Origin: Beroe forskalii
Taxonomy: Eukaryota > Ctenophora > Nuda > Beroida > Beroidae
Reading direction: 5' to 3'
DNA length: 64,000 nt
Assembly (NCBI GenBank): GCA_011033025.1
Contig: WFMF01000366.1
Span: 1-64,000, forward strand
Shown: piece after piece, positions 10,903 through 62,462 of the stretch
Position numbering within the stretch: the first letter of the stretch is position 1
How the letters are laid out: the number at the start of each line of letters is the position of its first letter
Translations under genes and position numbers: made by a program
The notes under the pieces: model-generated
What the model saw: the letters and a program-made list of their open reading frames with translations, nothing else
What the model was told of the DNA's origin: nothing
Databases searched by the model: none

Positions 10903-11049
10903 GGGTTGCCTTAAGTTCCTACAAACAGTAGAATTGACAAATGATGTTTCAGGTTGCGCTGCGTTCCTACAAACAGTAGTTAACAAACTGTATTTCAGGT
11001 AGCGCTGCGTTCTTGCAACATTACCTTTCTGACAAATGTTATTACCGGA
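10903..11049 (+). repeat. Triplicated acceptor before the DENND4 start exon
   Basis: Three tandem, diverged copies of a roughly 50-bp unit begin near 10903, 10950 and 10995. The last two read TTTCAGGTTGCGCTGCGTTC and TTTCAGGTAGCGCTGCGTTC; the first has lost the AG (TTTCGGGTTGCC). The last copy lies about 45 bases before the start codon, so it could be the true 3' splice site of the start-codon exon. The pattern matches the larger splice-site arrays further downstream. Confidence 0.55.
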
Positions 11050-13289
11050 ATGGAAGGAGGAGAATCGCCCTCAGTAGCAGACTACTTTGTTGTAGCTGGA
11101 CTTGATGACAACGCTACACTTCTTCAACCTCCCGAATACGTGAGAATGAATCTATATTGTTCTGCATTCCATGTCACTGGTATTACATCATTCTCTCAAA
11201 TTAAATTGCTAGTGATGGTTGTATCAATTTTAGACTCATGTGAGACTGAATATTGGAACAAAGCCAAATCAAATAACCCGATCAGACAGTAATGAAGGGT
11301 TTAGTAACGAGTAAAAATTACAAATTACTAAACGTCATATTACACACGAGGGCCGAAGGCCCGAGTGTGTAATATGGCATTGAAAAACCGAGGCCGAAGG
11401 CCGAGGTTTTTTAATGCTGAGTTTAGTAATTTTTACGAGTTATTAAACTGAATTATGCACCGACTTTACTCGAAAAAATGGCAATATTTTCAAACACAAG
11501 GAAATGTTTTAAATTAAGATTTGAAGGTAAGTTTGCTCAACTGTGCGAAATAACTTATTACGCACTGTTCTACTGCACCATAATAAATTATTATGACCTA
11601 CAGTGCGTAATAAATCCGGATATCGGCACTACAGTGCGCAATAATTTATTGCACACGGTACCCTGGTGTCTATAGGGTTTTTGAATACATAGCATAAACA
11701 CGCCTGGAAGGTGCATGATGAATGAATAAAACGAGAGGACACATATTCAGAATTATCAGATAACTAGATTAAGTCAGAAAGGATTGTGTTAGATCAGCAA
11801 TGAAAGGGTGATTCATGAACAAGATGAACAGTGCTCGGTTACTCTGTGTACAGATCATATTGTGTAGTGTTTCATGTATTTCATAATCTACAAACTACAG
11901 TACAGAATTGCTGTAGTTTGGACCGTGCATATCTCAGGGTTAGGAGAGAACAACATAAAATGAACCAATATGTTTGAGGGGGTGCAGTCTACTGTCTACA
12001 CTCTACATGAACACACATTGCACATAATAATTAATATAAAGTATTATAGTGTAACATTTAGCAAAGTACACCCTCACCCATGAGACACACAAACACACAC
12101 ACACACACAAACACACATATCACACTCAGTAAGTTCGCACATTTCTCACCACCTCTCGTAGTGTTAATTATATCATTTCAACCGTGTACTAGATGTTACG
12201 CCCTTACTATGCGGTGTACATTTTCATGTAATTAAGAAGAAAAGCTATTAAACTCCATAAAACAGGTTAAATATCTACCTGTTTCTCTTTCTATAATTTT
12301 CTGGCAATGTATTCTATTCCAGGGTATATAAACGATTTCATACCATTATTTCAAATATCTTAGTATTTTAGATTCTCAATCTCCAATTTCATTCTGATTT
12401 ATAAGTCAGGCCCTATCTCCAATTTCACATTAGCTCAAAATCACACCATTATTCTTTGATAACCAAAACCACGCCCTTTACTGCTGAATTTGGAGGGGGA
12501 ATCTCCCGGCCACATTTAACCTCTTGTGAGTCACTAATTTGCCCCCTTAACGCAGTCACGACATTGGCCCCGGATCACTTAACCCTTGGCCTATTTCCGA
12601 CGGGGAGGATTGGCTCCCATCGCATCCATAACCCCTCTCCTACGCAGCCACGAAATCTCCCAGATTACTTACCCCTGGACAAATTCCGAAAGGGAGAGTT
12701 TACTTAGCTCTTTCCTATATCCGAAAGGGAGAGTTGACTTACCTCTGTTCTATTTCCGACAGGGAGAGTTGGCCCCCATTGTTGACCTGAAGATCGTGCT
12801 ACCCCTGGAAAACGAGCTGTGTCCTGAACCCTGGGAGTATGTGAAGCCCAGCACGGCCCTCTACCCGGCTAACTTTAACTGGGTCAACCCTGCCCAAGTT
12901 CCCGTGTACATCATCTTCCGACGGGGATACGACCTCAAACCCATCAACGAGATAGAGTGAGTTAATTACTCCTGAGATCACATGGCTCTCTGATGATTTG
13001 CAATTCAAAAGCAGTACGTTCTATTTATGTTGATTGGTTTATTTCAACAATTTAATGTTAAGTTTTCAACCAAGTACCTTCCAGCATACAATTTATCGAA
13101 CGTAAAGACCGACCAAAGCCCGAGTTCACCTACATCAAGACATCGATTGGCGGGAAGCCAGTGTCCCTGAATGGGCACCTGAACCGGCCTAACAAACACG
13201 TGTATGTTGGGTACAAAAGGGCTATGGTCAGTTCGTTCACTGACGCAGTGACAGTCCTTCACCATACTACCAGCAAAAGGGAAGACCTG
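11050..13289 (+). CDS. DENND4: DENND4 exons 1-3: N-terminus and MABP domain
   Basis: Exon 1 (11050-11139) encodes 30 residues including VADYFVVAGL and ends TAC|GTGAGA. Exon 2 (12763-12956) opens with GELAPIVDLKIVLP and carries ANFNWVNPAQVPVYIIFRRG. Exon 3 (13085-13289) has IGGKPVSLNGHL and HVYVGYKRA. These are the repeated beta-prism motifs of the MABP domain, which in DENN and ESCRT proteins is thought to contact acidic membranes. Phases run 0, 2, 0. Intron 1 contains a hairpin element, and exon 2 is preceded by degenerate copies of its own acceptor. Confidence 0.93.
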
Positions 13290-16200: not shown

Positions 16201-19200
16201 TTAGGAGTAAAGGTAAGAATCTCTAGGACTGAAATGCACATTTTCACCTGCATCACTCAAATATGCTAGCCGCATATTGGTTTTTTAACCATATCTCAAA
16301 AAGTAAAGGTTTTGGGACCCTAAAAACCTCGTCCGCCCAACATAATTCGACTATTGCGGTCATTTTGAGGTGCTCATGGAGGTCCGTATCTCATTCAGAA
16401 GCTGAGATATCCTATTTTGAATATACGCGCCTACGCGCCTGAGGGAAATTTGAAAAAAATCATATTTGCCCCACTCAGATTTTAGTAGACTTTTTTGTGT
16501 GACCTCAGGGGACCCAATGGGAACTTATCCAGGTGAAATCAGCTTGTTATTTTCGATTTTAATTTCGATGCAAAAATCCGTTGGACTATTAGGCAGATTT
16601 TGTTATATCGCAAGTCCCGTTGTAAATATGTTAATAAGGTGCGTTGTTGATAAGGTACTGTTACTTATGGAGTACCATTGTTAATCATGTACCGCTGTGA
16701 ACAAGGTACCGTTGTTAATAAAGTACCGCGTGATTACAGAAATTAACTCAATCCTTATTACAGAGACAAGGTTTCAAGAGTATCAGACTGCACAAGAGTA
16801 CGTTTGGTATGGACACCTTCATGTCGTACAAACTAAATAAACTGCACGCTACCACTGGCATCTTCAAGGAGACCATTCTGGACTGGTGAGTCTCGAAGGA
16901 ACTCAATTAATAATCTCCATTTCTAAAACTCTCGGCGTTTTTACATGCTTTTTTAAAATATAATTTCTATAAAATAAAATATACATTTTTACATGCTACT
17001 TCTTGAGGGTATGATACCTGAAATTGACTCCACAGCTCCCTACCTCAGGTTTCCCAAGCGAGACAACCCTTCCTTTCCTCTGGACGTGAAGAATACCCCA
17101 GCCTTCTGCCTGCCCATGGGAGTACAGATCGAATGGTTTAGGAACCGAGACGTGAAACCCACCCCTCAATATTCTTCATTTGTCCTCACTAACGAAAAGG
17201 GGGCAAAGGTAACGTTCACAAACCGTTTTTATTGTAGTTTGGACAGTTGTGACTTCAGTCAAAATGGTTTTGACTAGTGGCTTTTCATCCAACCCTTGTT
17301 CAACCAAAATCACCTTACTTATGGGCCGTATCAACCGGCCCAAAGAAAACCATATTTTCCTTGTTTTCCCCAGGATTCGGACAAAATTTGCAAATTCATA
17401 AATTGATCTTTGACTGGTTATAAAACACTTAATACTTAATTGTGTTTTGATCAGACTTTCTACTCAATCATAGGAAATTGGATGCAGCACAATATCATAA
17501 GCGATACAGATAAACTAGTTCATTTGGACACCCCAGGACACACCAATATATCACATAACCCCAACATCGCAGATGTACGGCTCATCCTTGACGTTCTACG
17601 AACTGATTATCGGGACCGCCAAAATCCAATCAATCTCTGACAACTACCCCAAAGACACTGATCTCTTCCCCTATGCTACGAAGAGTATTTGTATTCTCTC
17701 TCGATGGCCTTCCTTCTTTGAGACCTTCGAGAAGTGGCTGACGGAACTTTACGAAATCTCAGTCGCTGGACTTGCTCTAACTATCCCAATAGAACGGTAG
17801 GGAACCATTTTCGGAGACTGGAAAAATATTGTATCTACTTCTGATCAAATAGAGGATGAAATGTAATGTCTGTTTGGACAATGTGAGGCATCATATATAT
17901 GATTATTACCCTACTTGATATATTTAGCAACTGCATTTCGACAGGATGATATCTAACATGCTCTACGATGTTCCCTTCCCCACTCTACACAAACCTACGG
18001 TGGAGCTCTCAATTGGAAGCAAAACTATTCAGTTCGAGCAGCCCCTCACTACACAGATCCCAACCAGGTTAGCTCCAAGAACAGATGTTTCTGAGTTCCT
18101 TCCTTTAGATATCTCAGAAATCAACTGATACGAAAGAATTGTAATCAGAAGCTTTCGAAAATCTTTTATATATTGTCTCAGAAACTTTTCATATGTGAAG
18201 GTCTTCAAAGCACATCCGTCATATTCATTACCCACTGGACCATTCATTGTTGATATGTTATATGAAGTATCAAAGTATAAACTCCACGATGAACAATGAA
18301 CCTGCTGACGACGATCATCACATGATATTCGATGGCTTCTGATATTTTAATCCCTCGAATCAGTCAAACGTTTTAACTTCTTCCCCTAAATGCTGATTAC
18401 CCATTTGACCCTCTCTCTCCTTTACAGCGGCGGGACTCTCACGACGCTGCTCCAGTGCCTGGACCCCTCCCACCTCCTCCAAGTGTTCTTCCAACTCCTG
18501 CTAGAGGAGAACGTGCTCTTCATCTCCTCCTCCTCCACCTTCCTCACCGCCACAGCCGAGGCTTTCTGCTCGCTCCTCTACCCCTTTAAGTGGATGTCTC
18601 CTTACATTCCGCTCCTACCCAGACTAATCGGAGAGGAGTTGTTCGCGGACTTCGAACTCGACTGTCCCGTCCCTTTCATCATAGGTAGGATCTTATTGTA
18701 ATGTCTGTTTCTGTGTGAGTTCGTGTGTAGCGTCGTCCTGTTTGCAATCTCGGACAGTTTTTAATTTACCATCGAGATGAACCTGAGAAGTATATCTGGG
18801 CGTGGAAGTTAATTACTTTTCTGTAAATTCGGAAATATAATTGTTGGAAAAAAAACTCACACAGACTACCTGATGAGACTTGTTACATCTTCAATTTGAC
18901 CGTCTTACTGTTTTAATCTAATTGGCTATCGCAACTTGTTAGGCGTGACACTTCACTGACAGGAGTTTGAGTATCTGACTCCGGCTTCCTTGCACTTGCG
19001 GTTAACAGGTTGTCTGTGAAAGGTATTCCAGACACCAAAGATCACCGTGATATGTAATGTAATCTGACACCGACACTGGTCAATATGGACATGCGATATG
19101 ATAAACGCTGGTGTTCGGTGTTGTTGATTCAGTTGCAACATTTTGATTCTGATCACAATTTTTGTGAGGGCTTCGCTCTCATTCTCAATCGCTAATTATG

Positions 19201-22200: not shown

Positions 22201-25200
22201 TATTTCTTGTCTGGGATACTTTTTCTCGTATACTTCAAAGTGTTGAACTCCGGAACTTCTGGAAAACCCTTGCCTACCAGTATTAACTCACGGTTCAAGC
22301 ATATCGATAACAGCATTTTCCCGATTGATCGAAGGTGGTTCCAATGTCGGATTACCGATTCGAAGAAGCTGATGAAAATCAACGGAGAAAAGTTATTCCT
22401 ATCGGAGGATTATAATCACCGACTTCAGGTCATGGAGCCGTGCCTCTCCTGTGTCCTCGGACAGAAACATGTCCACAAGAAACGAAGAACAGAGAGTGAT
22501 CTACGAGAATCATTGGGTCTTGAGAAAAGAACATTTCTACCAAGGGACTACAAGGAAATGAGAACTAGCCATACCTTATTGAGTTCCTCAAAATGTTGCC
22601 AGTACATGTATTGCAATCGAGACGAGATGAACTGGTTGATGAAGAAAGTGAGTTGTTATGACTGCGTTCACTATGATCTGACTGATATTCTGCCGGGAAT
22701 TGACAGCATCACCGATAGAATGTTGAGTCCAGGTGTGTCAGAAAACTGTGAAAAGGTCAAACGTAGAATAGAGTCCTTATATAGCGAATTAGTTGAGAAA
22801 AATAACTCTGATGATGTTATAGTTCCTGGCGATATTCCTGAGACTGTTTTCGAAGATTTTCGTGATATTTGCGAATCTTATTTTTCCCTGAAGGAAGCTG
22901 AGTGGGAGGAAAGATGCCTGATTTGGTGCCAATTGGCCCCATCTCATTTATACAGCAAATATCACCGATCCAAGTGGAGAAGTGCCGAATTTAGGAAAGA
23001 AATTGAAAAGTGGGTGAAATCTATGGAAACAATTTCCACCGAAGTCAGTGAACATTCTAGATTTAAAATAAACGGCCATTTCATGAATAGTGCTCATAGC
23101 AGTAATAGTGATAGACAGTTACAAGCTGAAGATGGAAGAAAAGGAGGAATAGACTCCGAGAAGGTTATTGAAAAGTTTTCCAGTGGCCAAAGTTCATTTT
23201 ACATTGACGGCAAAAGGATTGGGCGAAAAACAATTTAGGTTTTTCGGGCATTGTCAGATTTAACTGGTTAACTTCGGGCATGAAATGCTTCTTTGACTGA
23301 TTAAAATGTTTCAATCTGCCGGGGAATTAACTATGATACTTTTGAAACGCGACATCTTTGATCTACGCCATGGCAAACAATAAAATTACATTCATACGTC
23401 TGCTTCTATTTTTAATTGATATTAATTGCCTATCCGTATATTCATTATTATCTATATTAATCTATATTAATAATTTCAAAGTTTTCGAACGTCTGTCCGT
23501 AATAAGTTTATAGGAAGTATATGTAATATTTATCATCGGTTTTCTGCTGCAAAATCTGCACCTGATTAAGAGGATCATTGATACTTTGATATTCAAAATA
23601 TATTTTAATTGGACTATTGACAACTACGATGGTGATATAGGTAACATTACATTTATAGTTTATACGTCTGCTTCTATTTTTTTCCCTCTCCAATTGCGTT
23701 TTTGTTTTATAAAAAGGCAAATGAGAGGGTTAGCAGAGATCGTGGTTTTGCGGATTGTGGGAGAATTTGTGTGTACTACCTTCCGTCTCCCTCACAGGAA
23801 TGTAAAACCCTCTCCCTGCAGGGATGTAAAACCCTCTCCCTAGCAGGGATGTAAACCCCTCTCCCTGCAGGGATGTAAAACCCTCTCCCTCGCAGGGATG
23901 TAAAACCCTCTCCCTCGCAGGGATGTAAACCCCTCTCCCTGCAGGGATGTAAAACCCTCTCCCTCGCAGGGATGTAAACCCCTCTCCCTGCAGGGATGTA
24001 AAACCCTCTCCCTCGCAGGAATGTAAAACCTTCTCCCTGCAGGGATGTAAAACCCTCTCCCTCGCAGGGATGTAAAACCCTCTCCCTCGCAGGGATGTAA
24101 AACCCTCTCCCCGCAGGGATGTAAAACCCTCTCCCTCGCAGGGATGTAAAACCCTCTCCCCGCAGGGATGTAAAACTCTCTCCCTCGCAGGAATGTAAAA
24201 CCCTCTCCCTGCAGGAATGTAAAACCCTCTCCCTCGGAGTATGCGACTTTTTATCCCCCGACTTTTTACCACCCTAAGTATCATGTGCGACTTTTTACCC
24301 CCCGTCTTTTTATCCCCATAGGTATAGAAATGGAAAGTGTTTTGTAAAGTTCAACCATAAATCAATAATGTATAATATAATCTATAATGCTATTCAAATC
24401 AAACAAATTACAAATAATTACGGATGTACGTCTCCTTGCGTTTATCAGGCAACAAGGCATAAACACAAGGAACCGTAAACCTTGTGTTCTTCTGTCCGAG
24501 AACTGTGTAGAGCTTGGTCCATAGCTATATGAGTACCATGATACAACGTTATATGAGTATCATGATTCGATTCTTGGTACCTGACACCATTGCTCGAACG
24601 GGATAGCATCACGTCAGTTCCTCCTCGAAATGTGATCCAGGGGGGGGTAAAAGATCGCAGTTCTACGGTTAGGTACGACTGTTCATCCCCATCGAAGCTT
24701 GAACGGGGATAAAAGGTCGCAGCTGTGCTGTTGTCTGCGACCTTTTATCCCCTTGCTTCAAACCGAGCTCATTTTCAATGGGGGATAAAAAGTCGCAGTC
24801 CATGGCAGAAGTGCGCCTTTTTATCCCCCTCAGAATACAGTACAGATCAAAGGCAAAGCAAGGGGTAAAAGGTCGCACCTGTACCCTAGGGTGGTAAAAG
24901 GTCGGGGGATAAAAAGTCGGGGGGTAAAAGTCGCATCACCCTCCCTCGCAGGGATGTAAAACCCTCTCCCTCGCAGGATTGTAAAACCCTCTCCCTCGCA
25001 GGAATGTAACACCCTCTCCATAGCAGGGATGTAAAACTCTCTCCCTCGCAGGAATGTAAAACCCTCTCCCCGCAGGAATGTAAAACCCTATGCCCCGCAG
25101 GAATGTAAAACCCTCTCCCTGCAGGGATGTAAAACCCTCTCCCTAGCAGGGATGTAAACCCCTCTCCCCGCAGGGATGTAAAACCCTCTCCCTAGCAGGA

Positions 25201-28200
25201 ATGTAAAACCCTCTCCCTGCAGGAATGTAAAACCCTCTCCCTCGCAGGGATGTAAAACTCTCTCCCTGCAGGGATGTAAAACCCTTTCTCCCTGCAGGAA
25301 TGTAAACCCCTCTCCCTCTCAGGGATGTAAACCCTCTCCCTGGCAGGAATGTAAAACCCTCTCCCCCGCAGGAAAGTAAAACCCTCTCCCCGCAGGGATG
25401 TAAAACCCTCTCCCTAGCAGGGATGTAAAACCCTCTCCCCGCAGGAATGTAAAACACTCTCCCTGCAGGGATGTAAAACCCTCTCCCTCGCAGGGATGTA
25501 AACCCTCTCCCTCGCAGGGATGTAAAACCCTCTCCCTCGCAGGAATGTAAAACCCTCTCCCTAGCAGGAATGTAAAACCCTCTCCCTAGCAGGGATGTAA
25601 AACCCTCTCCCCGCAGGAATGTAAAACACTCTCCCTGCAGGGATGTAAAACCCTCTCCCTCGCAGGGATGTAAACCCTCTCCCTCGCAGGGATGTAAAAC
25701 CCTCTCCCTCGCAGGAATGTAAAACCCTCTCCCTAGCAGGAATGTAAAACCCTCTCCCTAGCAGGGATGTAAAACCCTCTCCCTAGCAGGGATGTAAAAC
25801 CCTCTCCCCGCAGGAATGTAAAACCCTCTCCCCGCAGGAATGTAAACCCTCTCCCTCGCAGGGATGTAAAACCCTCTCCCTCGCAGGAATGTAAAACCCT
25901 CTCCCTAGCAGGGATGTAAACCCTCTCCCTCGCAGGGATGTAAAACCCTCTCCCTAGCAGGGATGTAAACCCTCTCCCTCTCCCCGCAGGAATGAAGAGA
26001 GAATTCCTGGACATGTACCACTGTCCGGACCGGGTAACGGAAGTAGATCTGGATAACAACACAGTCCGACTTCCTACCACCTTCATGAACCCGGCGGACT
26101 TCCTGCCCAAGACGGTCATCAACAACCTGCGGAACAGCTTAACGTGCATCTACAACCTGTGTGACGACAACAACAACGGTACGTGCTGAGAGATGTGTAT
26201 TTTGTATAGAACTGCATTTACTTTTGTGTACAATTAACAAGCTTATACTGTGAAGTTACAACAGTAATTGTTCGATGTTTTGCAATCAGCATTTTGTGTA
26301 TACTGACATTCATTGACATAAGTGCAGTGTATTGTGCAGTGCACTGAATAACTGAATAATCATGGATAACATTGATTTTGTCCAAAAGGTCAACAACACC
26401 AAAAACTAAAATCATATCATGCAATGCAACATGCTAAATAACTCATATACCTTATTGGCCTTTATTTAGCCGGCCTTTATTTAGCCGGCCTTTTTTTAAC
26501 CGGCCTTTTTTTAACCGGCCCTATGGACAAAAAATGAATAATTTTTGAACCATTTTAACCGGCCCCTTGGACAAAAATTTTTCTGGAGGTTGCCAGATCA
26601 AGGATTTTTTGCTCTGAAATGACCACTAAAACCCTTTCTTACTTGATAAATTGCATCAAAAGACCCAAATCCCGGTCTGATATCATGATTTAGGTCGTTA
26701 TCGTGTTATAGGTAATGACTTTCCAGTGAATTTTGCACTATATAAGCCAATTCATAAAAGTTTCATTTGACCTAGATTAACTGGCCTTTAATTTGACCCA
26801 CTTTAACCGGCCTTTTTTTAACCGGCCCTTTGGACAAAAATTTCAAAGTCGTTTTTGTCCTTAAGGGCCGGTTGAATAAAGGTTGAATAAGGTAGAATGA
26901 TTATAAATATTAAAATTTTAATAAATGCATCCTTGATCATTCTATGCCTTAGAATCTATGGTTTAAAATTGTATGGTCTAAACATATATTATCATCATTA
27001 TAACATCTGAAAGTGACCAGAAAGTGGTCAGACAGTAGTGGTAAACAGAGAGTGACAAAGGGATCAGTATAGGGTCACCACTCACCAGGGGTCATTGATA
27101 CACGGGTCTGTGAGTTCTTGAAAAGAGAAGCATCCTGAAATTTCGAGTCGAACTTCACCATGTATGAACGTGTTACATTGTTACATTGGTTAAGTGAGCA
27201 TGACTTACGTACAAATGGCGGTCGTGCGGAAATTTCAGAAGGCGTTTTCAGAACTCACGACATCTACGGTGTGCTTTCATTCGACCAATCATTTATAAAG
27301 ATTTGTTCTTGTAAAATTAACTCCTTGTATTGTCATTATGATACAGATACTTGATCTTTAAAGACAAAACGTACTTATGGCTATGCTCGTATGACTTATT
27401 ACCCCCAAATTAGTTGCATAACTCGATTTTTCATGCGAAATTTTGGGATTTTAGAAGCTATAGTTCCCATATCTTTGTGATATCACAGTTCCGAACATTA
27501 CAAGTAATAAAAGTCACATGCAGATATCCGCCGTAAGGTACAGCACACGTCTAGTTGTTCCAATATTTCTTCTTGAGAGGTGGGCCTTCCATGTCAGTGA
27601 ACTCGAACCACACCCATTGGACAGGCATCCAGTACTGGTAGACAACACTTATCTCTGCCTTGCCCAGCTGAAAAGTTGCTAACGATAACATCGAGTTGAA
27701 CTGTTGCTGTGATCAGTGTTGCTATGAAATATACATGGTAACATGTTGCCATGGACGATGTTGCTATAGTAGATGTTGCCCTAGCAAGAACGGCAGCAGG
27801 ATATGTGTAACATTTTGATAATGGTCCATACCATCACATTACTGTTGTCTGACTGACAAGACCTACAAGGCTACAACTTACACTATCGAGGTCATCGCAA
27901 TTCTTGTACGTCACCAGTCCATTGTCCTCGTTTGCTTTGCAGCTCGGATCACTCGTAATTCCGATGTCAATAAACACTTCGTAAAGCCGTCCTTGAACCC
28001 CCTGCGTTATGTTAAAACTGTTAACCCGGTGAGTTCAGGGTAGATAGTAATTGAATTAATAACGGAAAATTATTTAAGAGTCGTATTTTTATCTACATAC
28101 TACAGTACGGAAGTGCTAATCATGATCAGCAATCACCCGTGTCTCAATAGAATAAATGTTTTTCTATAAATGTTTTTCTATAAATAGAATAAATGTTTTT

Positions 28201-31200
28201 CAGTATTCTCTTCATGGCTCGGCGAAGTGATCTTGCAGGTCACTGCACTTTTGCTACGTATGTGATAACAAACGAGTTTTAGATAAATTATTAAAATGAT
28301 TGCTTCTCAGCACATACAAGCGAACGTTTACAGATGCGCGCAGCACTCGGACATTTAGACGGTTCTTGTTCCGGCTGTGGTACAAAGTGCGCGCTACGGA
28401 GGGTAGGGAAAGACCGCACTAGGGTATTACCAATTATATAAAACTTCCGGAGAGTACTATTGAAACTCACTACTCACTGTCATCAGAACCTCGTCCACCT
28501 CCCCAATAATGATCGTTTGATCGGGTGTCATGGCCTTGTTGGCTCTTAACTTGAATTCCTGTATCACTCGTTTTATTGCCTCGATGATAAGGGGGTCGTG
28601 AAACTGTGCGTGGAAGGTACCGCCTGCGGATATTGGGTGTTTTTACTTGGTCTTCTTCGATATGAAGAAATAAAGAGATAAAGATAGTTCCCTTTCCGAG
28701 TGATTGAAATCGAATTACTCACAAAATTTGATCGTCATTGAGCTTTTGAGATCCTGTCATTGGTCATGTTTTCAAATGTTAATAACAATCAACATATCAT
28801 CCTCAATTAATAAACCCCTGCTCCTTAATAACTATTATGTTACAGTGACTAGATGAATGAGGATATCAGTACCTACAAGTACGTCCCTGGCTTCGCTGAG
28901 TTTGCGTCGTCTCTTGGTCAGAGCGTCCTTGAGCGTAACGCACGTGTACTTGGTTTGATCCGCGCAGTGGTTCTTGATCCTCCGCTCAATGCTCTTGCAG
29001 CTCCTCCTCTCTGTCAGAGTCAAAGTGTTCTCTATTCTATCGTACTTGAAATCCGGGAGCAGCTCTCCTGACCTCTTTGTTTTCTTATTCTTCTTCTTCT
29101 CGGTATCAGCCTTCTTCACCACCGTGTTTCGTAGGTCGTGCGCGGACTTCTTGCCGTTATCTCCCAGTGATATTCTAGTTTGTATCCCTGCTGATTCTCT
29201 GCCCACGTTGCTATCTCCTCCTTGACCCACTAAGTGGGCATTCTGACCCGTTATCTCCGTTTCCTCTTCGAAACCAAGATACTCGATGGCAAAGTGTCGG
29301 GCGGCACATTTGATCCACTTCACTTTGTAACCTGACAATTATTTATCAAGTCTTTTTCACTTTTAGGCTTCGCCGTGTTGTATCTTTTCATAGTTCATAA
29401 ACCCTCTCAAATGTGATAACACTTAGAATAAACCAGGGCTATCGGTTTATCAGTTGCAGCTTCTAATTATAAGAGGAGTTTTACTATATTCAGTATCAGC
29501 ATTAATTCACCTACGTATCTTTTTCAAAATCCAAATGATGGCACCTAGGAATTAAATCGAAAATATCCTAATCACAATCCGGATAATAAGAACAAACCGT
29601 AAGCGATGCATGATTCTAGTTGCATGTCAAGACTGCCACATTTCCTTGGACTAGACTTCAAGGAATGGGAGGTGGTATAATAAGATACGGACAGAAGGAG
29701 AAAAAACACCAAGGCCATCGTAACTTTAAAATTCCAAAGATAATTCAAGAATTCACGGATCGTTATGAACCGATCTAAAAGCAACCTCTGATATTCATAC
29801 TTTTAAAATCCATTTGAGTGCATTTTATTACCCTACCCCTCTACGTCAATATTGCTTCTACCAAATTGATAGATAATGGTCCCTTAGTCCTTAAGTAGCA
29901 CGCAATATTTCAGTTATTGCCAAATTTAAATGCCCAGTGGAATAATAGTGGAAATGGAGGAATGGCAAACCCGAACCTATTTGAGTCAAATCCAAAAGCA
30001 AAACATTATTAAAAGTTGAAATTCACAGCTGGGGCCATAATGTTTGACGCTGTACGTAAAGCGCGTACGTAAGTATCGCTTAAGTATCGCTTATCATTGT
30101 GGTGGCTTGGTGGGCAGAATTTTGGTGAATTGTGTGATTTTTCTTGAAAAATCCTCAAATTTCGGACAAACATCCCTCAAAAGTGCGGTATGTGAAACGT
30201 GTCCCTTACAGTTCGGAAGCGAGCGGTGGAGTTGAGTATCCAGGAGATGTTCCTGAAGTTCCAAGCGCACATCCTCAAAGGCTACACGGACTACCTGCTG
30301 CCGGTCAAGGAGTCCAAGGACAAGAACTTCTGCAACGCCGAGAACCTCTTCGACATCGATAACTTCATCCTGTCCCGCGAGGAGTACCAGCGACCGTTTT
30401 ACAAGGTTTGGGCGCAGCAGGTCAGCAGGCTTCTGATTTACCCTCTAACAATCAGAAATTATGAAAAATAAGCTGCATGACATGACATAAATATTGCCCC
30501 TTTCAAGTGTCAACAATAGATTCCTTGGAAGGAGAATTTTGGTATTACGAGCTGATAAATGTTCATAGTCAAAAAATAGGTGGCATTTCATATGTAATCT
30601 TTCATTTTTTGTGGTAAGCTCTTGAAAGTTTGTAGATATAAAAGAAGATTCTTGTGAAGTGTGATACTTCTCCCTATGATATTATGAACCTGCTCAATTA
30701 GACCAACCTCCATTTTCTAACGTCAAAGAAGCCAACTCGTTGCCTAGCTCCTCACACCTCCTCCCTCCACAGAAGTTGTTGTGTACGCAGATGTTCAACT
30801 GTTTCATCATCGCCCGGTCCTTCATCTCGGACGCTGACGAGACTCTTGAGTTCTTTGACGGGTGCATAGAGCGGCTGGAGGAGAACGCCCCGCTGCTCCA
30901 CGAGACGGACTCCAACAAGGGCGTCACTGTGGTCGTGCAGACGGAGAAAATGTCGAAAGGTATAACGAGCGGTGCGCGTGTGTTTTATAGCAGCTTACAT
31001 TTGGAATAATATCATGTCCTTGAATAAGGATATATCCCATGAATCCATAAGCTGTGGCCTGTGTGGCTTTTAGCAGATATTAACTATCGTCTATCAGAAT
31101 ACCCCTGAACCATTTGATTTGTGATGATTTTCCTTCCCACAATACCTGATTCACACCTTGCTACTCTCTCTTCCTTGACTAAAACTCCCCCTCTATCAGG

Positions 31201-34200
31201 ACTAAAACTCCCCCTCTATCAGGACTAAAACTCCCCCCTCTCCCTGGACTAAAACTCCCCCCTCTCTCAGGACTAAAACTCCCCCCCTCTCTCCCCCTCT
31301 CTCCCCCTCTCTAAAACTCCCCCTCTCTCTCAAGACTAAAACTCCCCCCCTCTCTAAAACTCCCCCTCTCTCTCAGAACTAAAAGTCCCCCTCTCTCTCA
31401 GGACTAAAACTCCCTCTCTCCCTCAGGACTAAAACCCAACAAGTTGTACAGCTACCCTGTCTTCGTGCTGGATCACGAGCTCTTCTACGATGACCTGCCC
31501 GAGGAACGTCCTGGCCAGGAACGCTCCGTCATCTCCCTCCGCACCAAGGTACTGCTAACTTCTCACGTTCAGAGCTGTGCAGTTACTTTCAGATCAAGAT
31601 TTTGGCGAAAGTGACCAAACCGAATAACTCAGATGCGTATATTCTTCCCCTGTTCATTATTGGTTAATGAATCTCACAAACAGCATGATCTCTCCTGATC
31701 AGATTGATCAAATTGCGGCACTTCTGCACTGTGGTTCATTGATAATTACCATAATAACAACTTTCTTCTTTCCTGCAATCACCCCATTCCGTAGCACCAT
31801 TACAAGCAGTGAAATCCATATAAACTACAAACCCCTATTACCCAGGTTGAGAAGCAGAAGATGATGAAGCGCGCGCAGGCAGCCAAGGTGCGCAGCAACA
31901 CGATGTCGTGGGCGCGGTGTCTACTGCAACACGTTTACAGCGTGTGGTACCTCTACCTGCCGTCTCTCATCACCATCCTGGAGGGAGGGGAGGAACAGAG
32001 GGAGCAGCTACAGACAGCGCTACACATCATACAGACACTTAGGACGGAGAGGAACACCAACCTAGAGGAGGTAGTCTAGTGGTGTCTCTCTACCTGTCTA
32101 ACTGTCTGTCTACCCGTCTGTTTGTCTACCCGTCTGCCTGTCTACCTGTCTGTCTGTCTACCTGTTCGTATATCTGTCTGTTTGTCTGTCTGCAACTTCA
32201 CCGTGAGCAGCTGCAGACAGCGCTCCATATCATACAGACACTTAGGACGGGAACTTTCTACTAAATTGCAGTCTAGATATCATGGAGCGAGAAGTTTGAT
32301 GTAATCTGGTTGTGATATTTACGCTCCAACTCTTCATTAACTCTTATTCTCTCAGGTGTGTTACAGGATACTGATATCTCTATCTGGTTTCTACGACCAT
32401 CCCCAAGTTGCCATGGAAACGTTCACTCACATGCAGGAACTTAAGATGAACATCAGTGCTGTTACATACGGACACTATCACAGGGCTGTGCTGTACAACG
32501 ACACAGAACCAGAATCAAACACAGCTCTCTCCAACTGGAGAACACTCAGACTTTACATCATCACCTCCATCGCGTTTAAGAAGTTCAGGAGGAAATCAGA
32601 AACTGCCATAGTCCATACCAGCTCCCTCGAGAGCATTCAATCGAGCGAGAAGAACACGGAGTCCCCAACGGGAACAGGACGGTTCTCTTCCATTGGGATG
32701 TCAGATTCAGGGATCGACCTGGACAATCCTTTGTCAGGTCTGAAAACGAACTCGTTAGAAAAGAGGAGCAGCAGTGAGAGTAAAGCGAGCAGTGCTAGTC
32801 CCCCTTTACCCCAGATAGTGACGCCCCAAAGGCCCCCGGTTATCCCGAACAGAACTCCCAAACGGGGCCACACCCGTAGCATATCAGACGTGTCGATGTT
32901 ATCAGTGCAGAACGTTCATTACAGACAGTTATCTGACGACGCTGGCTCTAAGAGTCTCTCTCGTCTCAAGTCGCCGCGCTTCAAGCGCAGCAGCCTCATG
33001 GGTCGGACAGTGGGCGACTCCAAGGGCTTGTCAAGTGGCGGCAGTGACAACGGCAGCTTCAAACGGTCCCGGAACACGATGACAGCCAGCAGTTCTTCGT
33101 ACAGCGTCACCTCGTTAGAGCCCGAGGAGGACCCGGACGAGTTCTACCAGCGGGACTTCGTGAACCCGAGCCCCATCAAGTTCACCCTGCCCCCGGAGTG
33201 CGGCGAGGACCTGGACTCGGAGTCGGAGCTGAAGGTTAAGATCTGGAGCTCCTACCCCTGCTCCCAGTGCCAGCTTACCATATACGATGAGCAGATCCTA
33301 GCGGGGTGGGGGTTCGAGGAAAGCAACCTCTCCACCACCTGCCCTTACTGCGACATGCCGTCCGTAGCACAGCTCTCTATAGAGGTCAGAGTGTCATGTG
33401 GGTGGTGAATATCCGGACAAATAACTATTCGTCACTTATCTATACTGTTGTTTAACTCTTCACAGTCAAACTGTTATTTCTGACATATTCTAGTGCTTGG
33501 CCCCCTAATGATTGAGTGTTCCTACGAGTGCTGATTGAGTGTTCCTATGGCTCTATGAGTACTGACTACGCCTCTTCATCAGGTCAGATACCGGTCCTCA
33601 AGACAGCAGCAGACGAGGACGATACAGAGCTGGAGGGGAAGCCTCGACAACACCGGGAGAGCAGCATCACTAAGAGCCTGCCCCTCGATACCAACAACAT
33701 CCAGATATCCCTGGAGGGAGAGGACGACTTCATCAACTCCTACGAGTCAGGTAGATACCCCGGGGTTAGGTTGTCGTGTGCCGAGAATGGGGATAATATT
33801 ACTACTGCTCCAGTGTTCCATTTAATTTCCTAGAGTTTCTACTATCTACTGTTTGCAGGAAACATTTCCTTTGCGATGCCTGAGCCCATCAGAAGAGAAC
33901 GGAAGACGACCCGAAGTGGTTCGATAATAGCAGCCATGAACCCCAGAACCATGAAGAAACAGGAGGAAGAGGACAGAACCGAGAGGATAGAGGTCCCCTA
34001 CCTGTGCCCCATTGTACTGAGGAAAGAGGTTTGTGCCTGATTATCCCCTGTTATCAATGCTCCATGGTGGGGTTCATGCTCCCTATCTCTGTTCAGAAAG
34101 CAAGGAGAACTCTTTGGAAAGGAGAATTCTTCCCAAGAAAGATATTTCAATAAACCCGTTATGTTAACTTAAAACTCTCAGCTCACTCTTCCCTCAGGTT

Positions 34201-37200
34201 GAGTGCGTGTGTGAGAGTGATGGCCCCGGAGAGATGGTAAAAGAGGACCTGGCGACCTCCCACTCCATCCTCTTCTGGAACATGGTGTGGTGGTTCTGCA
34301 GGGAGAACTTGCCCTCGTCCCTGCCCCTCAACATCCCCCAAGCCTTCAAACACCTCCACCCTGACGGAAAGGTTATTAGTCTGACAGGAGCTGCTTAGTG
34401 CACACTCCACCAGATCTCGTAGATCATGCACCTTATTTTCTGACAATTCGTCCTATTTAGCTAAGGCGATTCCCCCGAAATTCATGTAAACAACATGCAA
34501 TATCTCAGTGCGTCGTATTGATTCATGATGATTAGCTTCATGTAACACTCTTAACTAACGCACGTTGTCTGTCCGCAGTTGCCGCAGACAGTGGAGTTGA
34601 GTACAGAGTGGAGTAACACGTCCCATTCCCTCTACAACAACTTCTCCGAACTCTCACTGCACAAGGAACTACCCCAGTGTGCCCAGCTGTGGAGGGTCGT
34701 CGAGCACTTCATGCAGGACGAGCTGAGTGTAAAGGAGTCTTTGGTCGTGTTCTGGGGTGGGATGATAATATGCAGAGTCATCTTCTTCTGATTTTCTCAC
34801 TTACCAAATCTTCAGTCACTCTAAGTTGATATTCCCCTCAAATCGCACTCTATTATTACTCATTAGACCACACTACCACAGTACCACAATCACTTCACCA
34901 ACACCTCTATTTTTACTCCCCTCTATCCTCTTTCCCCAATCCCCTACTCCCCTCACACCCCTCTAGTCCTACTTCCCTATTCCCTCTACTTCCTGTCCCT
35001 CAATCCTACTCCTCGCCGACAAAATTATTCTGCTCCCCATAATTGGAACCACCTCAAATCATCTCGGTTCATACCTTGATAATTTTGTGCCGGCCGATAA
35101 AACCCCCAGCTTAAAACCATAATATTTAACTGAAATGAATTAACACAGTCCCCAACTGCAAAGTGCTGTTAACACCCCTCTTACAATTTCAATTTAAACC
35201 AGAACAATAGCTGCAAAGTGCTGTTAACCTCCTCCCTCCAAAGCAAAGTGCTGTCACTTTCTCCCCCTTTGTGTGAAACTATGGAAGCACTAGTTTATAT
35301 TTTGATTCTCCCTTGATAGCTGCAAGTGTCATTAACACCCCTCTCAAAGCAGCGGACCAGTTTGAATAACAATTCCCGGCTGCAAAGTTCTAACACCCCC
35401 TGTGTCTCATGATCATCATTATCATTTCAAAACAAAATACGCCCAAGCTTAGTTTAATTTGAAATTTTTCCAAACTGTTTTAAGCGTTGTTACCCCCCTC
35501 TCTCACGTTCAAACTTCTGTCTCCCCTGATTGATACTTCAATTTGTATTTAACAAGCCATAGCATATGGCTGCTATATACAAATGAGGGAGGAAGTGGTC
35601 TGCAAGCAGTGTACGAAATCTGCCGCAACTCTGCTGCAAAAGTGATTTCGAACACCCTATTCTAGTTTGTGGAATCATCTCAAAGCAAAGTGCTGTACAT
35701 TGATCTTCCACAGCTGAGAAGTGTTGTTAACACAAAACCCCTCTCTTCCAGCTGCAAATTGACGTCTAAAATTGAAGTAAATTTATCGCCGATAATTATC
35801 GGTATCGCCGATAATTCACAAAAAGTTATCGATTATCGCCGTTAAAAAATTTCGACCGATATTGGAAACCCTATCTACTACCTGTCTTCTCAGCTCCAAA
35901 CACCCACCCCTCTCTTCCAGCTGCAAAGTGCTCACCCTCTCCAACCACCTCCAAGTCCATCTCCCACTCCCCCACTCATACCTTGATCAACCTCTCACTT
36001 CCAGCTGCAAAGTGCTGTTAACACCTCTCCTCTCCCAACTGCAAAGTGCTGTTAACACCCCCTCTCTCAGCTACAAAGTGCTGTTAACACCCCCTCTCTC
36101 CCAGCTACAAAGTGCTGTTAACACCCCCTCTCTCCCAGCTGCAAAGTGCTGTTAACACCTCCCTCTCTCCCAGCTGCAAAGTGCTGTTAACACCCCTCTC
36201 TCTCCCAGCTGCAAAGTGCTGTTAACACCCTCTCTCTCTTTCTCTCAGCTACAAAGTGCTGTTAACACCCCCTCTATCCCAGCTGCAAAGAGCTGTTAAC
36301 ACCCTCTCTCTCTCCCAGCTGCAAAGTGCTGTTAACACCCCCTCTCTCCCAGCTGCAAAGTGCTGTTAACACCACCTCTCTCTCAGCTACAAAGTGCTGT
36401 TATCACCCCCTCTCTCTCTCTCAGCTGCAAAGTGCTGTTAACACCCCCTCTCTCCAGCTGCAAAGTGCTGTTAACACCTCCCCTCTCCCAGCTGCAAAGT
36501 GCTGTTAACACCCCCTCTCTCCCAGCTACAAAGTGCTGTTAACACCTCCCCTCTCCCAGCTGCAAAGTGCTGTTAACACCCCCTCTCTCTTCCAGCTGCA
36601 AAGTGCTGTTAACACCCCTCTCCCAGCTGCAAAGTGCTGTTAACACCCCTCTCTCTCCCAGCTGCAAAGTGCTGTTAACACCCCTCTCTCCCAGCTGCAA
36701 AGTGCTGTTAACACCCCCTCTCCCAGCTGCAAAGTGCTGTTAACACCCCCTCTCTCTTCCAGCTGCAAAGAGCTGATAACCTGTTAACACCCCCTCTCTC
36801 CCAGCTGCAAAGTGCTGTTAACACCCCCTCTCCCAGCTGCAAAGTGCTGTTAACACCCCTCTCTCCCAGCTGCAAAGTGCTGTTAACACCCCCTCTCTCT
36901 TCCAGCTGCAAAGTGCTGTTAACACCCCCCCTCTCTCTCCCAGCTACAAAGTGCTGTTAACACCCCCTCTCTCCCAGCTGCAAAGTGCTGTTAACACCCC
37001 CTCTCTTCCAGCTGCAAAGTGCTGTTAACCTGTTAACACCCCTCTCCCAGCTACAAAGGGCTGTTAACACCCCCTCTCTCAGCTGCAAAGTGCTGTTAAC
37101 ACCCCCTCTCTCTTCCAGCTGCAAAGTGCTGTTAACACCTCCCCTCTCTCCCAGCAGCAAAGTGCCGTTAACACCTCCTCTCCCAGCTGCAAAGTGCCGT

Positions 37201-42848: not shown

Positions 42849-46455
<3,607 letters not shown>

Positions 46456-47495
46456 GGCTACTCAAATTTGATTGTATAAATGAATATATGAACTGAAATG
46501 AAAAATAATTTCGAATTTTCAAACTGTACTCGCTTATCAATGGACAAAACATGCGAAGTAGAAGAGTTGATGGGAGAGAGATCAGAAAATTCGAGTGCAA
46601 TGAACAATAATAATCGGGCGCGCACGAATAAATCAATGGAATAAATGCGCGCAGCAGAAAGTGGTGACAATGTTGGCTTGGTAGTAAAATTCAAGTTTCT
46701 GAGAAGACCCTTTTGGAATATTTCCAATATTTTGTGACCGGTTTGGCAAGTTGACGTGTAGTGACAGGGCGGGAATTTGCAGTTATCAGACAAACGCAGC
46801 CGTGAAATACTATCAATGACAAATGATTAAGGGCGCCAAAGCTGTTATCAACTTACAACTTCTATAGAGACTTGCTGGTCAGTTTTGAGACGGGATAGCA
46901 AATTGAAGAATAATGCACAATGTTCTATAAAAATAAGAAACTAATATCAACAGATTGATAAACAATATGCCTTTTAGAATAAAGATTACACGGAAACAAA
47001 CGGCATAAAAGCCTTCATTAACATACTTAAATGCAGATGCGCAGGAAAATTATTGTTCATGATAATTTAAGATATAAAAAACAACTCTGAAAATATTTAC
47101 AAAACATTTGAAGCTCGGATAATTCAGAAAACAAACATGTCCAATGATAAAATCAAAACTAAACCTGGCAGCTGCATTATGCATGACCATCTTATTATCA
47201 AACTTTTATTTAAATAAAAATAAAGAAAACCTTAGTCATTGTTAGTGTATAATGAATCATAATAAAAAGATAAAAGCTTGTGGACACTTTCTGAACCGCT
47301 AACCATTTACCATTCCATTGGCACAGCAAACTGAGATCGATCAACAATTCCGCAACTGATCATTGATCATCGGCCAAATAAAACAACGAATCGAATGGAT
47401 CCCAGTCCAATGATCACACATCTTAGTTCCTACAGGATTCCATAGTTTCTGTAACAATGCAGGATGATGATCCTCACTTGAGTCCCACCTACTCT
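46456..47495. other. Spacer between KAT5 and the four-pass protein gene
   Basis: It contains the 5' flank of KAT5, with a modest CG-bearing patch at 46615-46650 (GGGCGCGCAC, GCGCGCAG) that could be its promoter. AT-rich DNA follows without genes. Confidence 0.4.
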
Positions 47496-47723
47496 CTAAA
47501 AGGAGCAAGGCGCCTCTGTGCCGGGAGGCCCTGTTTTCTGAGGTAGAGGCGTCTAAAAGGAGCAAGGCGCCTCTGTGCCAGGATGCCCTGTTTTCTGAGG
47601 TAGAGGCGATTAAAAGGAGCAAGGCGCCTCTGCGCCGGGAGGCCCTGTTTTCTGAGGTAGAGGCGTCTAAAAGGAGCAAGGCGCCTCTGCACCGGGAGGC
47701 CCTGTTTTCTGAGGAAGAGGCGG
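47496..47723 (-). repeat. 57-bp repeat spanning a stop codon (4 copies)
   Basis: Four copies of a 57-bp unit (19 codons) start at 47496, 47553, 47610 and 47667. On the minus strand the unit encodes PLPQKTGPPG(A/T)EAPCSF and a stop. The copy at 47667-47723 is the real C-terminus of the upstream gene; the other three lie in its 3' flank. In-frame copy length means loss of the stop would extend the protein by further units. Confidence 0.9.
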
Positions 47724-48624: not shown

Positions 48625-50520
48625 ACATTATACATGCACACAAAAATGTATAGACACACAGGCATGTACAGACACACCAACATGTACAGACACACAAACA
48701 TGTACAGACACACAAACATGTACAGACACACAGGCATGTACAGACACACCAACATGTACAGACACACAAACATGTACAGACACACAAACATGTACAGACA
48801 CACAGGCATGTACAGACACACAGGCATGTACAGACACACAAACATGTACAGACACACAAACATGTACAGACACACAGGCATGTACATTCACACAGGCATG
48901 TACAGACACACAGGCATGTACAGACACACAAACATGTACAGACACACAAACATGTACAGACACACAAACATGTACAGACACACAGGCATGTACAGACACA
49001 CCAACATGTACAGACACACAAACATGTACAGACACACAAACATGCACAGACACACAGGCATGTACATTCACACAGGCGTGTACAGGCACACAGGCATGTA
49101 CAGACACACAAACATGTACAGACACACAAACATGTACAGACACACAAACATGTACAGACACACAGGCATGTACAGACACACCAACATGTACAGACACACA
49201 CAAACATGTACAGACACACAGGCATGTACAGACACACCAACATGTACAGACACACAAACATGTACAGACACACAAACATGCACAGACACACGGGCATGCA
49301 CATTCACACAAACATGTACAGGCACACAGGCATGTACAGACACACAAACATGTACAGACACACAAACATGTACAGACACACAGGCATGTACATTTACAGA
49401 CACAGTGGCATGTACAGACAGATAGGCATGTACAGGGACACAAACATGTACAGACACACAGGCATGTACAGACACACCAACATGTACAGACACACAAACA
49501 TGTACAGACACACAAACATGCACAGACACACAGGCATGTACATTCACACAGGCGTGTACAGGCACACAGGCATGTACAGACACACAAACATGTACAGACA
49601 CACAAACATGTACAGACACACAAACATGTACAGACACACAGGCATGTACAGACACACCAACATGTACAGACACACAAACATGTACAGACACACAAACATG
49701 TACAGACACACAAACATGTACAGACACACAGGCATGTACAGACACACCAACATGTACAGACACACAAACATGTACAGACACACAAACATGCACAGACACA
49801 CAGGCATGTACATTCACACAGGCGTGTACAGGCACACAGGCATGTACAGACACACAAACATGTACAGACACACAAACATGTACAGACACACAGGCATGTA
49901 CAGACACACAAACATGTACAGACACACAAACATGTACAGACACACAAACATGCACAGACACACAGGCATGTACATTCACACAGGCGTGTACAGGCACACA
50001 GGCATGTACAGACACACAAACATGTACAGACACACAAACATGTACAGACACACAAACATGCACAGACACACAAACATGTACAGACACACAAACATGTACA
50101 GACACACAGGCATGTACAGACACACCAACATGTACAGACACACACAAACATGTACAGACACACAGGCATGTACAGACACACCAACATGTACAGACACACA
50201 AACATGTACAGACACACAAACATGCACAGACACACGGGCATGCACATTCACACAGGTGTGTACAGGCACACAGGCATGTGCAGGCACACAGGCATGTACG
50301 TTCACACAGGCATGTACATTGTACAGATACACATGTTTGTACAGACACAGTGGCATGTACAGACAGATAGGCATGTACAGGGACACAAACATGTACTGAG
50401 ACACAGGCATGTACTGAGACACACAGGCATGTAAAGACACACAGGCATGTACAGACACACAGCCATGTACAGACACACAAACATGCACATTGTACGGACA
50501 CATTAACATTTACATTGTAC
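48625..50520. repeat. 18-bp minisatellite (about 100 copies)
   Basis: Units of ACACACAAACATGTACAG and variants (CAGGCATGTACAGACACA, ACCAACATG, ACATTCACACAGGCGTG). The variants form a higher-order pattern of about 280-300 bp containing the 'acattcacacaggcgtgtacaggcac' block. The 18-bp period and lack of stops leave long open frames on both strands; these are not evidence of protein. The array begins about 180 bp upstream of the four-pass gene's ATG. Confidence 0.93.
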
Positions 50521-55870: not shown

Positions 55871-56172
55871 TCGTTTTAGCACTTTAGTTTCGGCCTGTAG
55901 GCTTTAGGGTTTATCGTTATTTTCTATTCTTACATTCCGGCTTTTGAGGTATCTATACTCAGGGATTTTTTGCTTTATTAGTTACGTCTAGTTTACGTCT
56001 TTTGTATTGACACAGCCTTATAAATAAATCAACACGGACTAATGTTATTGTGATTATCACACAATTGTATTCTGATAGTGATATATCTCAAATTCAGAGG
56101 AATATTGATTCTCTAAAAGGTCAAATCATCTGAGTTGTGATGTATTCCTGATATTATGTGCTGCTAGATTGC

Positions 56173-57648: not shown

Positions 57649-58131
57649 GAGTTTCACCTTTCCAATGTCTCTGGATAAATCTACATGGAAATTATGTTCA
57701 GAGGAATGAACCGATGTTGAGACAAGAATCGATCAAAAATTATGATAATTTTTGTTTTCAAGTTCTCGAAAATGACGATCAAATTTAAATGCTGTGACTG
57801 TCTTGTAAATACTATTTTGTTACAGTCGGTGTTTGATTTGCTAATGTACTTTTCTATTGTAGTTAGTTTCATATCAGTTTTATAAAAATTATTTTCTTGT
57901 TTATATTTGTGATGTTCGCTGGTTTGTTTTCTTTGTTTGTGTTTTTAATTACCAATGACGAATGCTGTATATTTTCATCATAATTTATCCATTGGCATTG
58001 CTTTTAAGCTTTTCAAAGTACACATTTAAGTTACAATTTGTCATTCCCCATCCCTCTAACAACACTAAACTATTTGAGGCTTATGTATCATATTATGTCA
58101 ATAAGCTGCCCTAAGGAAGTTACCCCTTTAA
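57649..58131. other. ATMIN 3' flank
   Basis: T-rich DNA without coding signal, presumably 3' untranslated region of ATMIN and spacer. No canonical AATAAA is evident. Confidence 0.4.
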
Positions 58132-60987: not shown

Positions 60988-62317
60988 AATGGATATATTT
61001 GAACTTTTTTTATTCACGTAATAAGATTAGCAACCTTGCTCTGTAGTTGATAATATAGTATCTCTTTGAACGGTTGTTTGTAATAGCACCAGCAGGGGCG
61101 GGGTGCAGCGTGACGGACTTAGTAGCGGGTAGCCCACTAGCCCTCTCCTTTCCTGATCAGGATTAATAAATAGAACTGAAAGATTTTTTGAAATCATTGT
61201 GTGGGTTTTTCTAGGACCAGGAACACAAAAAATACAGCAATCATCACAAAAAGCTTCCATAGTCTGTACTATAATCACAGCTTTATCATCAATGTCTGAT
61301 CATATTGGAAGTGAAGCAGGTCCTACGTCGCATGTTGGATGAAATTTGTCTCAATTCTCATATTTTGTTCTCAAGTGAGCAATCTACCTGGAACTCAGTT
61401 GTAGTATTGATTTATTATCCACGTTGCACACTAGGTACTTTTTGTACAGAGTTTGGACAAAGGAGAAATTACATTGAATGTTCATTGGAGTATTGTTATG
61501 GAAAATCGTTGTGTACACAAACAATACGCAGCGTATGCCGTATCACACTATACAGTATCCACTTAACAATACATCATCCAGGGGGGAAGGTCGCAGTTCT
61601 ACGGTTAGGTACGACTGTTTATCCCCATCGAAGCTTGAACGGGGATAAAAGGTCGCAGCTGTACTGTTATCTACGACTTTTTATCCCCAGCTTCATTCCG
61701 AGCTCATTTTCAACAGGGGATAAAAGTCGCAGTCTATCGCAGAAGTACGCCTTTTCATTCCCCTCAAATACATTATAGATCAAAGGTAAAGCAGGGGGTA
61801 AAAGGTTGGACCTGTGCCCCATGGTGGTAAAAGGTCGGGGGAAAAGGTTGCATCACCTACATCATTAAAAATACATCATACAATATAAGACAGGAAGAGT
61901 GACTTGTGGACTCGCTAATTGGGACACACTTGACATAGTTACTATAGGTGCACCATTGTACAATGTACAATACACCGGTCAGTCACCACTGAATTGTACA
62001 GTGAGGCACTATACATCAAATCACCATTCTGTACACTACACAGTTAATATGTACTGCACACATGAATAATTCTGCGCTAGTGATATGTTGAATACTGCAA
62101 ACGATGTGCAGTTGACAACTATACCTACACGCTGAACACAACGCTGTACAATGTACATTAACCCAATACACGGTTATTGGTTAACATGCACACTACACCT
62201 ACACCTAATACTCACTATACAATATACATGCACCTAATACTCTCTATACCTACAGTCTACACTTTGGTCCGTATGTTAGTCACTCACTAGGTGGTGACTC
62301 ACTAGTGAGTGACTACC
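60988..62317. other. Spacer before SETD1, likely holding its first exon
   Basis: It contains the truncated transposon at 61579-61857 and TGTACA-rich DNA (61960-62240). The visible SETD1 exons lack a start codon, so a short first coding exon may lie here or further left, but I could not pick it out. A palindrome (AGTCACTCACTA .. TAGTGAGTGACT) lies at about 62278-62314. Confidence 0.4.
61579..61857. mobile_element. Truncated second copy of the 24236 element
   Basis: Closely matches the right part of the element at 24236-24940: GGTCGCAGTTCTACGGTTAG, CCCCATCGAAGCTTGAACGG, CGAGCTCATTTTCAA and GTGGTAAAAGGTCGGGG, ending TTGCATCACC. The left third is absent. Confidence 0.8.
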
Positions 62318-62462
62318 AACACAAGGCTAATCTCCCTGTCCCTCAGTACACAAGGCTAATCTCCCTGTCCCTCAGTACACAAGGCTAATCTCCCTGTCCC
62401 TCAGTACACAAGGCTAATCTCCCTGTCCCTCAGTACACAAGGCTAATCTCCCTGTCCCTCAG
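62318..62462 (+). repeat. SETD1: 29-bp acceptor minisatellite abutting a SETD1 exon
   Basis: Five copies of ACACAAGGCTAATCTCCCTG / TCCCTCAGT. The last ends TGTCCCTCAG|TACACACGGAGC, the first visible SETD1 exon. Every copy therefore has the same pyrimidine tract, CAG and first exon bases (TACACA). Using the penultimate decoy runs into TGA within the exon. Confidence 0.9.

Follow-up and report, generated by a model that had tools for sequence, protein, structure and literature searches.

Seven minisatellite arrays in a 64,000-nucleotide stretch of the genome of the ctenophore Beroe forskalii lie across splice junctions, so that the junction falls within the repeat unit and each unit mixes exon and intron bases. 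The stretch (positions 1 to 64,000 of contig WFMF01000366.1, here contig C432 of a 216-Mb genome assembly) is referred to below as the window, and the arrays are found in three genes, five in DENND4 and one each in KAT5 and SETD1. The same arrangement recurs in exons sampled elsewhere in the genome, and about 5% of the junctions sampled are straddled in this way. The arrays are probably ‘mirage’ minisatellites, that is, random local tandem duplications that happened to cover a junction and were later expanded and homogenised.

Arrays across junctions in the window

Tandem Repeats Finder (TRF) gives 60 rows within the window. Exon edges were set from the reading frame and the splice consensus, providing 43 usable junctions in the three genes. 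Fourteen DENND4 exons were placed, covering part of the gene, and the exon numbers 9, 12 and 19 are nominal labels. The straddled acceptors are those at 10999, 12763, 25990, 31427 and 37254 in DENND4 and at 62463 in SETD1, whilst the straddled donor is that at 44644 in KAT5, on the minus strand. The units are 24–46 bp long, with 5–30 exon bases in each.

10915..11012, plus strand: D2 array, 46-bp unit, 2.1 copies, with the 3' splice site of the DENND4 exon at 10999 and 14 exon bases per unit (TRF).
12665..12770, plus strand: D3 array, 35-bp unit, 3 copies, with the 3' splice site of DENND4 exon 12763-12956 and 8 exon bases (TRF).
23786..24236, plus strand: upstream block of the D9 array, with the same 25-bp unit as 24941-25994, split off by an inserted element.
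24941..25994, plus strand: D9 array, 25-bp unit, 42 full copies, ending 5 bases into DENND4 exon 25990-26178.
31177..31435, plus strand: D12 array, 24-bp unit, 11 copies, with the 3' splice site of DENND4 exon 31427-31548 and 9 exon bases (TRF).
35994..37271, plus strand: D19 array, 34-bp unit, 36 full copies, with the 3' splice site of DENND4 exon 37254-37409 and 18 exon bases (TRF).
43104..44673, minus strand: K4 array, 42-bp unit, 37 full copies, with the 5' splice site of KAT5 exon 44644-44834 and 30 of the 42 unit bases exonic (TRF).
62319..62468, plus strand: S1 array, 29-bp unit, 5.2 identical copies, with the 3' splice site of SETD1 exon 62463-62587 and 6 exon bases (TRF).
24237..24945, strand unset: inserted element (about 700 bp) whose terminal inverted repeats are of the GCGACTTTTTATCCCC type, inside the 25-bp array D9.

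A preliminary description of the window, made from its letters alone, had named arrays ending on exons in these three genes; TRF recovers all of them, and the DENND4 array at 12763 is an addition to that list. TRF ends the D9 array at 25980, 9 bases short of the junction; its last copy was identified by eye, hence its inclusion in the count. More decayed copies can be seen by eye upstream of the D3 array, as can scattered ones before the D19 array, from about 35150. A search of the assembly with the DENND4 exon at 37254, the one exon tried, gave a single match and no allelic copy. The inverted-repeat element has a partial copy at 61587-61845 (89% identity over 263 bp).

The identity of KAT5 is given by its best PDB match, HTATIP, and by the presence of Pfam MYST domains. 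Four joined exons of SETD1 have their best PDB matches in SETD1A/B, in the RNA-binding domain, and the 42-aa SETD1 exon piece by itself has no Pfam match. Pfam places a DENN domain at 18390-18698 in DENND4; three other pieces of this gene searched against Pfam gave no match.

The excess of array ends at junctions

Wherever an array reaches across an exon edge, geometry alone places the junction in its unit, and so the proper test is how often arrays overlap edges. An outside sample was therefore drawn from profile searches of the genome for myosin, kinesin and SNF2 domains, the exons being chosen regardless of repeats. The rows used (45 of 74 for myosin, 60 of 109 for kinesin and 16 of 38 for SNF2) were hand-picked, mostly for few or no internal stops and a clean short match. 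Splice sites were called by a simple score, which left 15 edges without a site (five acceptors and three donors in kinesin, two acceptors and five donors in myosin, some of these last being profile ends that were deliberately skipped), and one duplicate junction was removed. Arrays were counted if they had a TRF score of at least 50 and a period of at least 12, and were positioned by their exon-facing end. The background is the density of such ends 50–650 bp into the intron, per base outside arrays; the straddling expectation was computed for a 35-bp stretch of exon, close to the mean period of background arrays (31 bp).

Some calls required a decision. Two acceptors, L146 (mis-called, with its true site past the array) and L102 (weak), were not counted as straddling and were kept in the denominator; the call for the L147 donor is off by some bases, and its array straddles the true site regardless. 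Of the other edges called, a small number probably fall within exons, so that the measured rate is on the low side. Kinase loci supplied no junctions, since the edges of the domain are mostly not exon edges, and only their matched stretches are used, in the exon count below. KAT loci from the genome search were left out of the counts; at one of these (L006) the donor at the end of the match is straddled by an array too.

In the window, 7 of the 43 junctions are straddled against 1.0 expected. Outside it the count is 12 of 224 (3.1 expected, p = 6e-4), and at a further 11 of the 224 an array ends 0–25 bp before the exon on the intron side (2.2 expected), giving a joint p of 3e-6. In exons sampled across the genome, array ends are therefore enriched at junctions, an outcome that favours the preliminary description. 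When all 267 junctions are taken together, 19 are straddled where 4.5 would be expected, and at 12 an array ends 0–25 bp before the exon (3.2 expected), with a joint p of 7e-8; the p-values treat junctions as independent, and some of them are paralogous. Array ends are thus about four-fold denser at junctions than in intron interiors.

The excess is spread over families and over both kinds of site. Among 111 kinesin junctions, five are straddled and four have a near array, with the background there resting on a single end; in SNF2, after inspection, 5 of 30 are straddled and 2 of 30 near; in myosin alone, five near arrays compare with 0.9 expected. With near and straddling arrays pooled for kinesin and myosin, the excess is significant for acceptors (p = 0.0014) and for donors (p = 0.016), values that include the weak L102 acceptor, later dropped. 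Base composition was considered as a cause of the excess and rejected, the fold predicted from G+C being only 0.96.

Coding sequence presents the opposite picture. No array lies wholly within an exon in 23,979 unique bp from 143 exons, where about 10 would be expected at the intron density, and none lies wholly within 22,930 bp of kinase-domain matches. As to these matches, many of the best-scoring protein kinase rows (L009-L037) are the whole 263-position domain in one intronless frame, the listing favouring long matches.

Probable origin and tolerance of the arrays

Arrays straddle the acceptors D2, D3, D9, D12, D19, S1, L047, L073, L077, L091, L136, L139 and L145, and the donors K4, L060, L081, L091, L146 and L147. 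Their units are 22–58 bp long. At the L146 donor (gtgggt), for instance, 34 of the 57 bp in the unit are exonic, and at the L145 acceptor 35 of 51. One kinesin exon (L091) has an array at either end, and in L081 a 28-bp unit ends CTCCAG|gttt, with copies also at the opposite end of that intron (L129). The exonic share of the unit is compatible with random, uniform placement (19 units, Kolmogorov–Smirnov p = 0.30), and there is no sign of frame selection on unit length, periods being divisible by three in 8 of 19, some of them rounded. A single spreading repeat family was tried as an explanation and rejected, since the 19 units are unrelated (best pairwise score 25, against 17–34 in shuffles); the earlier claim of recurrence in unrelated genes with unrelated units thus holds, and it holds at 5' as well as 3' splice sites.

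These properties are those of mirage minisatellites. A segment duplicated locally in tandem would by chance span an exon–intron junction, and the array would then expand and homogenise as any minisatellite does. Duplications within coding sequence would be purged and those within introns tolerated, and a duplication spanning a junction would be tolerated where the old mRNA can still form. In the donor case the exon-proximal copy would have to win, whilst in the acceptor case the last AG would have to be reachable from a branch site located after the previous AG; a harmless acceptor unit should, we infer, hold a complete 3' site comprising branch site, pyrimidine tract and AG. The spliceosome would then take the exon-proximal copy, and the straddling class may survive because this copy still yields the old mRNA.

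Acceptor units do tend to be complete. Seven of 10 acceptor units have a YTRAY branch-site motif 12–45 nt upstream of the exon, compared with 1.6 in shuffles, and in six of these seven it is at 16–22 nt; two of three further acceptor units, added later, have it too. In the SETD1 unit the motif is CTAAT, 17 nt upstream of the exon. It can be made of exon-derived bases, wholly in D19, where the exon bases end GTTAAC 18 nt ahead of the exon start of the next copy, and mostly in L073. In D12 the exon bases contain CTAAA, 19 nt ahead of the next exon start. The preliminary description had taken the exon-proximal copies in general to be functional; this is supported for the KAT5 donor only, where joining that copy to the next exon gives a protein colinear with human KAT5 and with zero insertion at the joint, which argues for its use as judged from sequence.

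Several observations tell against this explanation. The excess at junctions is itself one of them, because random placement with tolerance alone predicts none, although straddling in myosin alone shows little of it (2 against 1.2 expected). The G+C content of straddling arrays is higher than that of background arrays (median 0.51 against 0.44, p = 0.005), as expected where part of the unit is exonic. YTRAY is missing from 4 of 13 acceptor units, namely D3, D9, L145 and D12, the last with CTAAA only. It is a textbook motif that may not be the species' own, and ordinary acceptors of this genome have it at -50 to -15 in 43% of 109 cases against 36% when shuffled; being common there too, it fits the completeness of the units without proving it. 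Lastly, the splice dinucleotides hardly change in the long arrays (AG is mutated in 0 of 42 copies of D9, GT in 0 of 37 in K4, where it is intact in all 37 full copies, and the dinucleotide in 1 of 36 in D19), which could reflect selection for function. Many other columns, however, are as unmutated as the splice columns, and in D12 the departure from AG is 36% at each AG column, which contradicts such selection. Two further lines of evidence used below, a pair of paralogous exons and an array over a stop codon, are single cases.

The excess could also mean that exon edges raise the rate of tandem duplication, whether through conflict between replication and transcription, R-loops, nucleosome edges or bound splicing factors. 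Junction-targeted mutation of this kind is a doubtful alternative, though it would account directly for a roughly four-fold excess that is seen across the edge as well as immediately on its intron side, at acceptors and donors and over three gene families, and that G+C leaves unexplained. Differences in survival would give the same pile-up: an array that abuts or straddles the exon edge cannot be lost to a deletion running into the exon, as the splice site would go too, and the pile-up could arise from this alone. The excess reflects either more births or fewer deaths, and we lean towards shelter of this sort together with the tolerance filter; a higher birth rate at junctions, such as the slippage proposed in the preliminary description would give, would look identical in one genome. 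Straddling at donors only, in kinesin and myosin before SNF2 was added, is not significant by itself (3 against 1.2 expected, p = 0.11).

Copying outward from the exon, as the preliminary description proposed, would leave a polarity in the arrays that the longer ones do not have. In D19, D9, K4 and D12 (11–42 units) the units do not become more diverged away from the exon, and L047 alone, a short array of 8 units, shows a rise. The splicing-linked mechanism offered in the same description fares no better, as intron-side arrays without a splice site are just as enriched in the sample outside the window, and the structure recurs over a stop codon.

47495..47722, minus strand: 57-bp unit, 4 copies, array lying across the stop codon (47667-47669) of a 258-aa open reading frame, each copy with a stop codon (TRF).

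The frame resembles a membrane protein and has no Pfam match. Here the geometry found at junctions occurs on a border between coding and non-coding sequence that has no splice site, and the identity of the two leaves a mechanism coupled to splicing unsupported; it likewise speaks against targeting to junctions. A wider picture can be entertained only tentatively, in which exon edges are hot spots of array birth, thousands of junctions sit in stand-alone splice-site modules, introns grow outward, and the spliceosome routinely picks the last of as many as about 40 equivalent acceptors, or the first of about 40 donors, requiring recognition across the exon.

It is improbable that the additional splice-site copies are retained because they improve or regulate splicing. 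The near-invariant dinucleotides of D9, D19 and K4 and the tendency of acceptor units towards complete 3' sites are what such redundancy would produce, but the decayed AG of D12 and the lack of frame preference in the periods are not, and in the sample outside the window arrays just inside introns that hold no site are equally enriched. Paralogues also differ in whether they have an array: the kinesin exons L072 and L073, 85% identical, have a common junction, with an array in L073 only. The array is thus probably younger than the intron. In other kinesin paralogues (L082, L093 and L094) 31-bp arrays lie about 12–39 bp past the donor, with similar units and differing copy number, and the array common to them probably predates the gene duplications.

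The same pair bears on the birth of introns by tandem duplication of an exonic AGGT (the Rogers model), which is very unlikely here. In L081 the unit does have the form ...CTCCAG|GTTT, and copies occupy much of the intron from both ends (L081 and L129). The junction common to L072 and L073, however, exists with and without the array, many units lack an AG followed by GT at the junction (D3, D9, D12, D19, S1 and L073, for example), and units mix exon and intron bases rather than consisting of exon alone. Assembly artefact or sequencing stutter is equally hard to credit: tandem arrays are error-prone, and for one lancelet mirage the genome draft is reported to be aberrantly assembled (PMC3087553), but the copies here differ in patterned ways, an element has inserted inside D9, the arrays are on many contigs, and re-sequencing of lancelet PGBD5 spoke against assembly error (PMC3902484).

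The window has some other features. A 907-residue open frame without a Pfam match lies between DENND4 exons at 20515-23235 (plus strand), perhaps extending the open frame at 20066-20581. Outside the placed exons, an 18-bp array of about 100 copies (CACACAAACATGTACAGA) occupies 48637-50489. An Rfam scan of the window gave no match at the gathering threshold.

Relation to known systems

Should splice sites indeed be multiplied at about 5% of junctions, this genome amounts to a natural experiment in how splice sites are chosen, with rows of near-identical acceptors or donors of which apparently only the exon-proximal one gives the right mRNA. Such rows bear on recognition of the exon versus the intron, on the growth of introns, and on the question of whether repeats are sheltered or seeded at the borders of exons.

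Introner elements, by which many introns of a genome have a common repetitive origin, form one dispersed family, whereas the 19 units here are unrelated between genes. Intron gain by tandem genomic duplication, reportedly described by Rogers in 1989 and Hellsten in 2011, is similar in that tandem duplication involves splice signals. It makes a new intron out of exon, however, whilst here, on the evidence of the one pair L072/L073, a pre-existing junction is multiplied. Ordinary intronic minisatellites are abundant in this genome, at 0.42 ends per kb, and overlap in period with the straddling arrays, which differ in spanning or abutting a coding border.

The closest relatives are the mirages of lancelets, and the claim of the preliminary description that no such general pattern had been described does not stand, as these have the same kind of structure. 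In two reports (PMC3087553, PMC3902484), mirages are minisatellite-like tandem duplications of the exon–intron boundary, at 5' and 3' borders, with regular splicing reported to be undisturbed. They are known from Adh3, the globins BflGb6 and BflGb9, PGBD5, troponin C and two further loci, the PGBD5 case being added and troponin C cited in the later-numbered report (PMC3902484), and haplotype differences in copy number and somatic instability have been recorded (PMC3087553). The arrays described here agree in having units that span the boundary with exon and intron bases and in affecting both borders, and their unit lengths (22–58 bp) compare with 10–72 bp in Adh3 and up to about 160 bp among the lancelet cases.

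There are two differences. The lancelet cases, in what was available of these reports, are single genes, whereas here arrays were counted per junction, at 267 junctions and against a background rate. They are also all cephalochordate in the same text, and the present host is not a lancelet: its cox1 (contig C1134) is AT-rich and divergent, with TGA as Trp and AGA at a conserved Arg, which fits mitochondrial code 4 and not a bilaterian invertebrate code. Taken with nuclear genes of metazoan type, this indicates a non-bilaterian animal, most likely a ctenophore. Since host range is not a structural criterion, this does not bar the arrays from being mirages. Among the matches listed in a search of the open-licence literature there was no report of the pattern in a ctenophore or other non-bilaterian animal, nor of a rate per junction. 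The structure is thus already known; what is new is the distant host, the rate of about 5% per junction and an excess left unexplained by G+C. The presence of mirages in so distant an animal suggests that they come about generally, as a by-product of abundant tandem duplication in a genome, and are not an oddity of lancelets.

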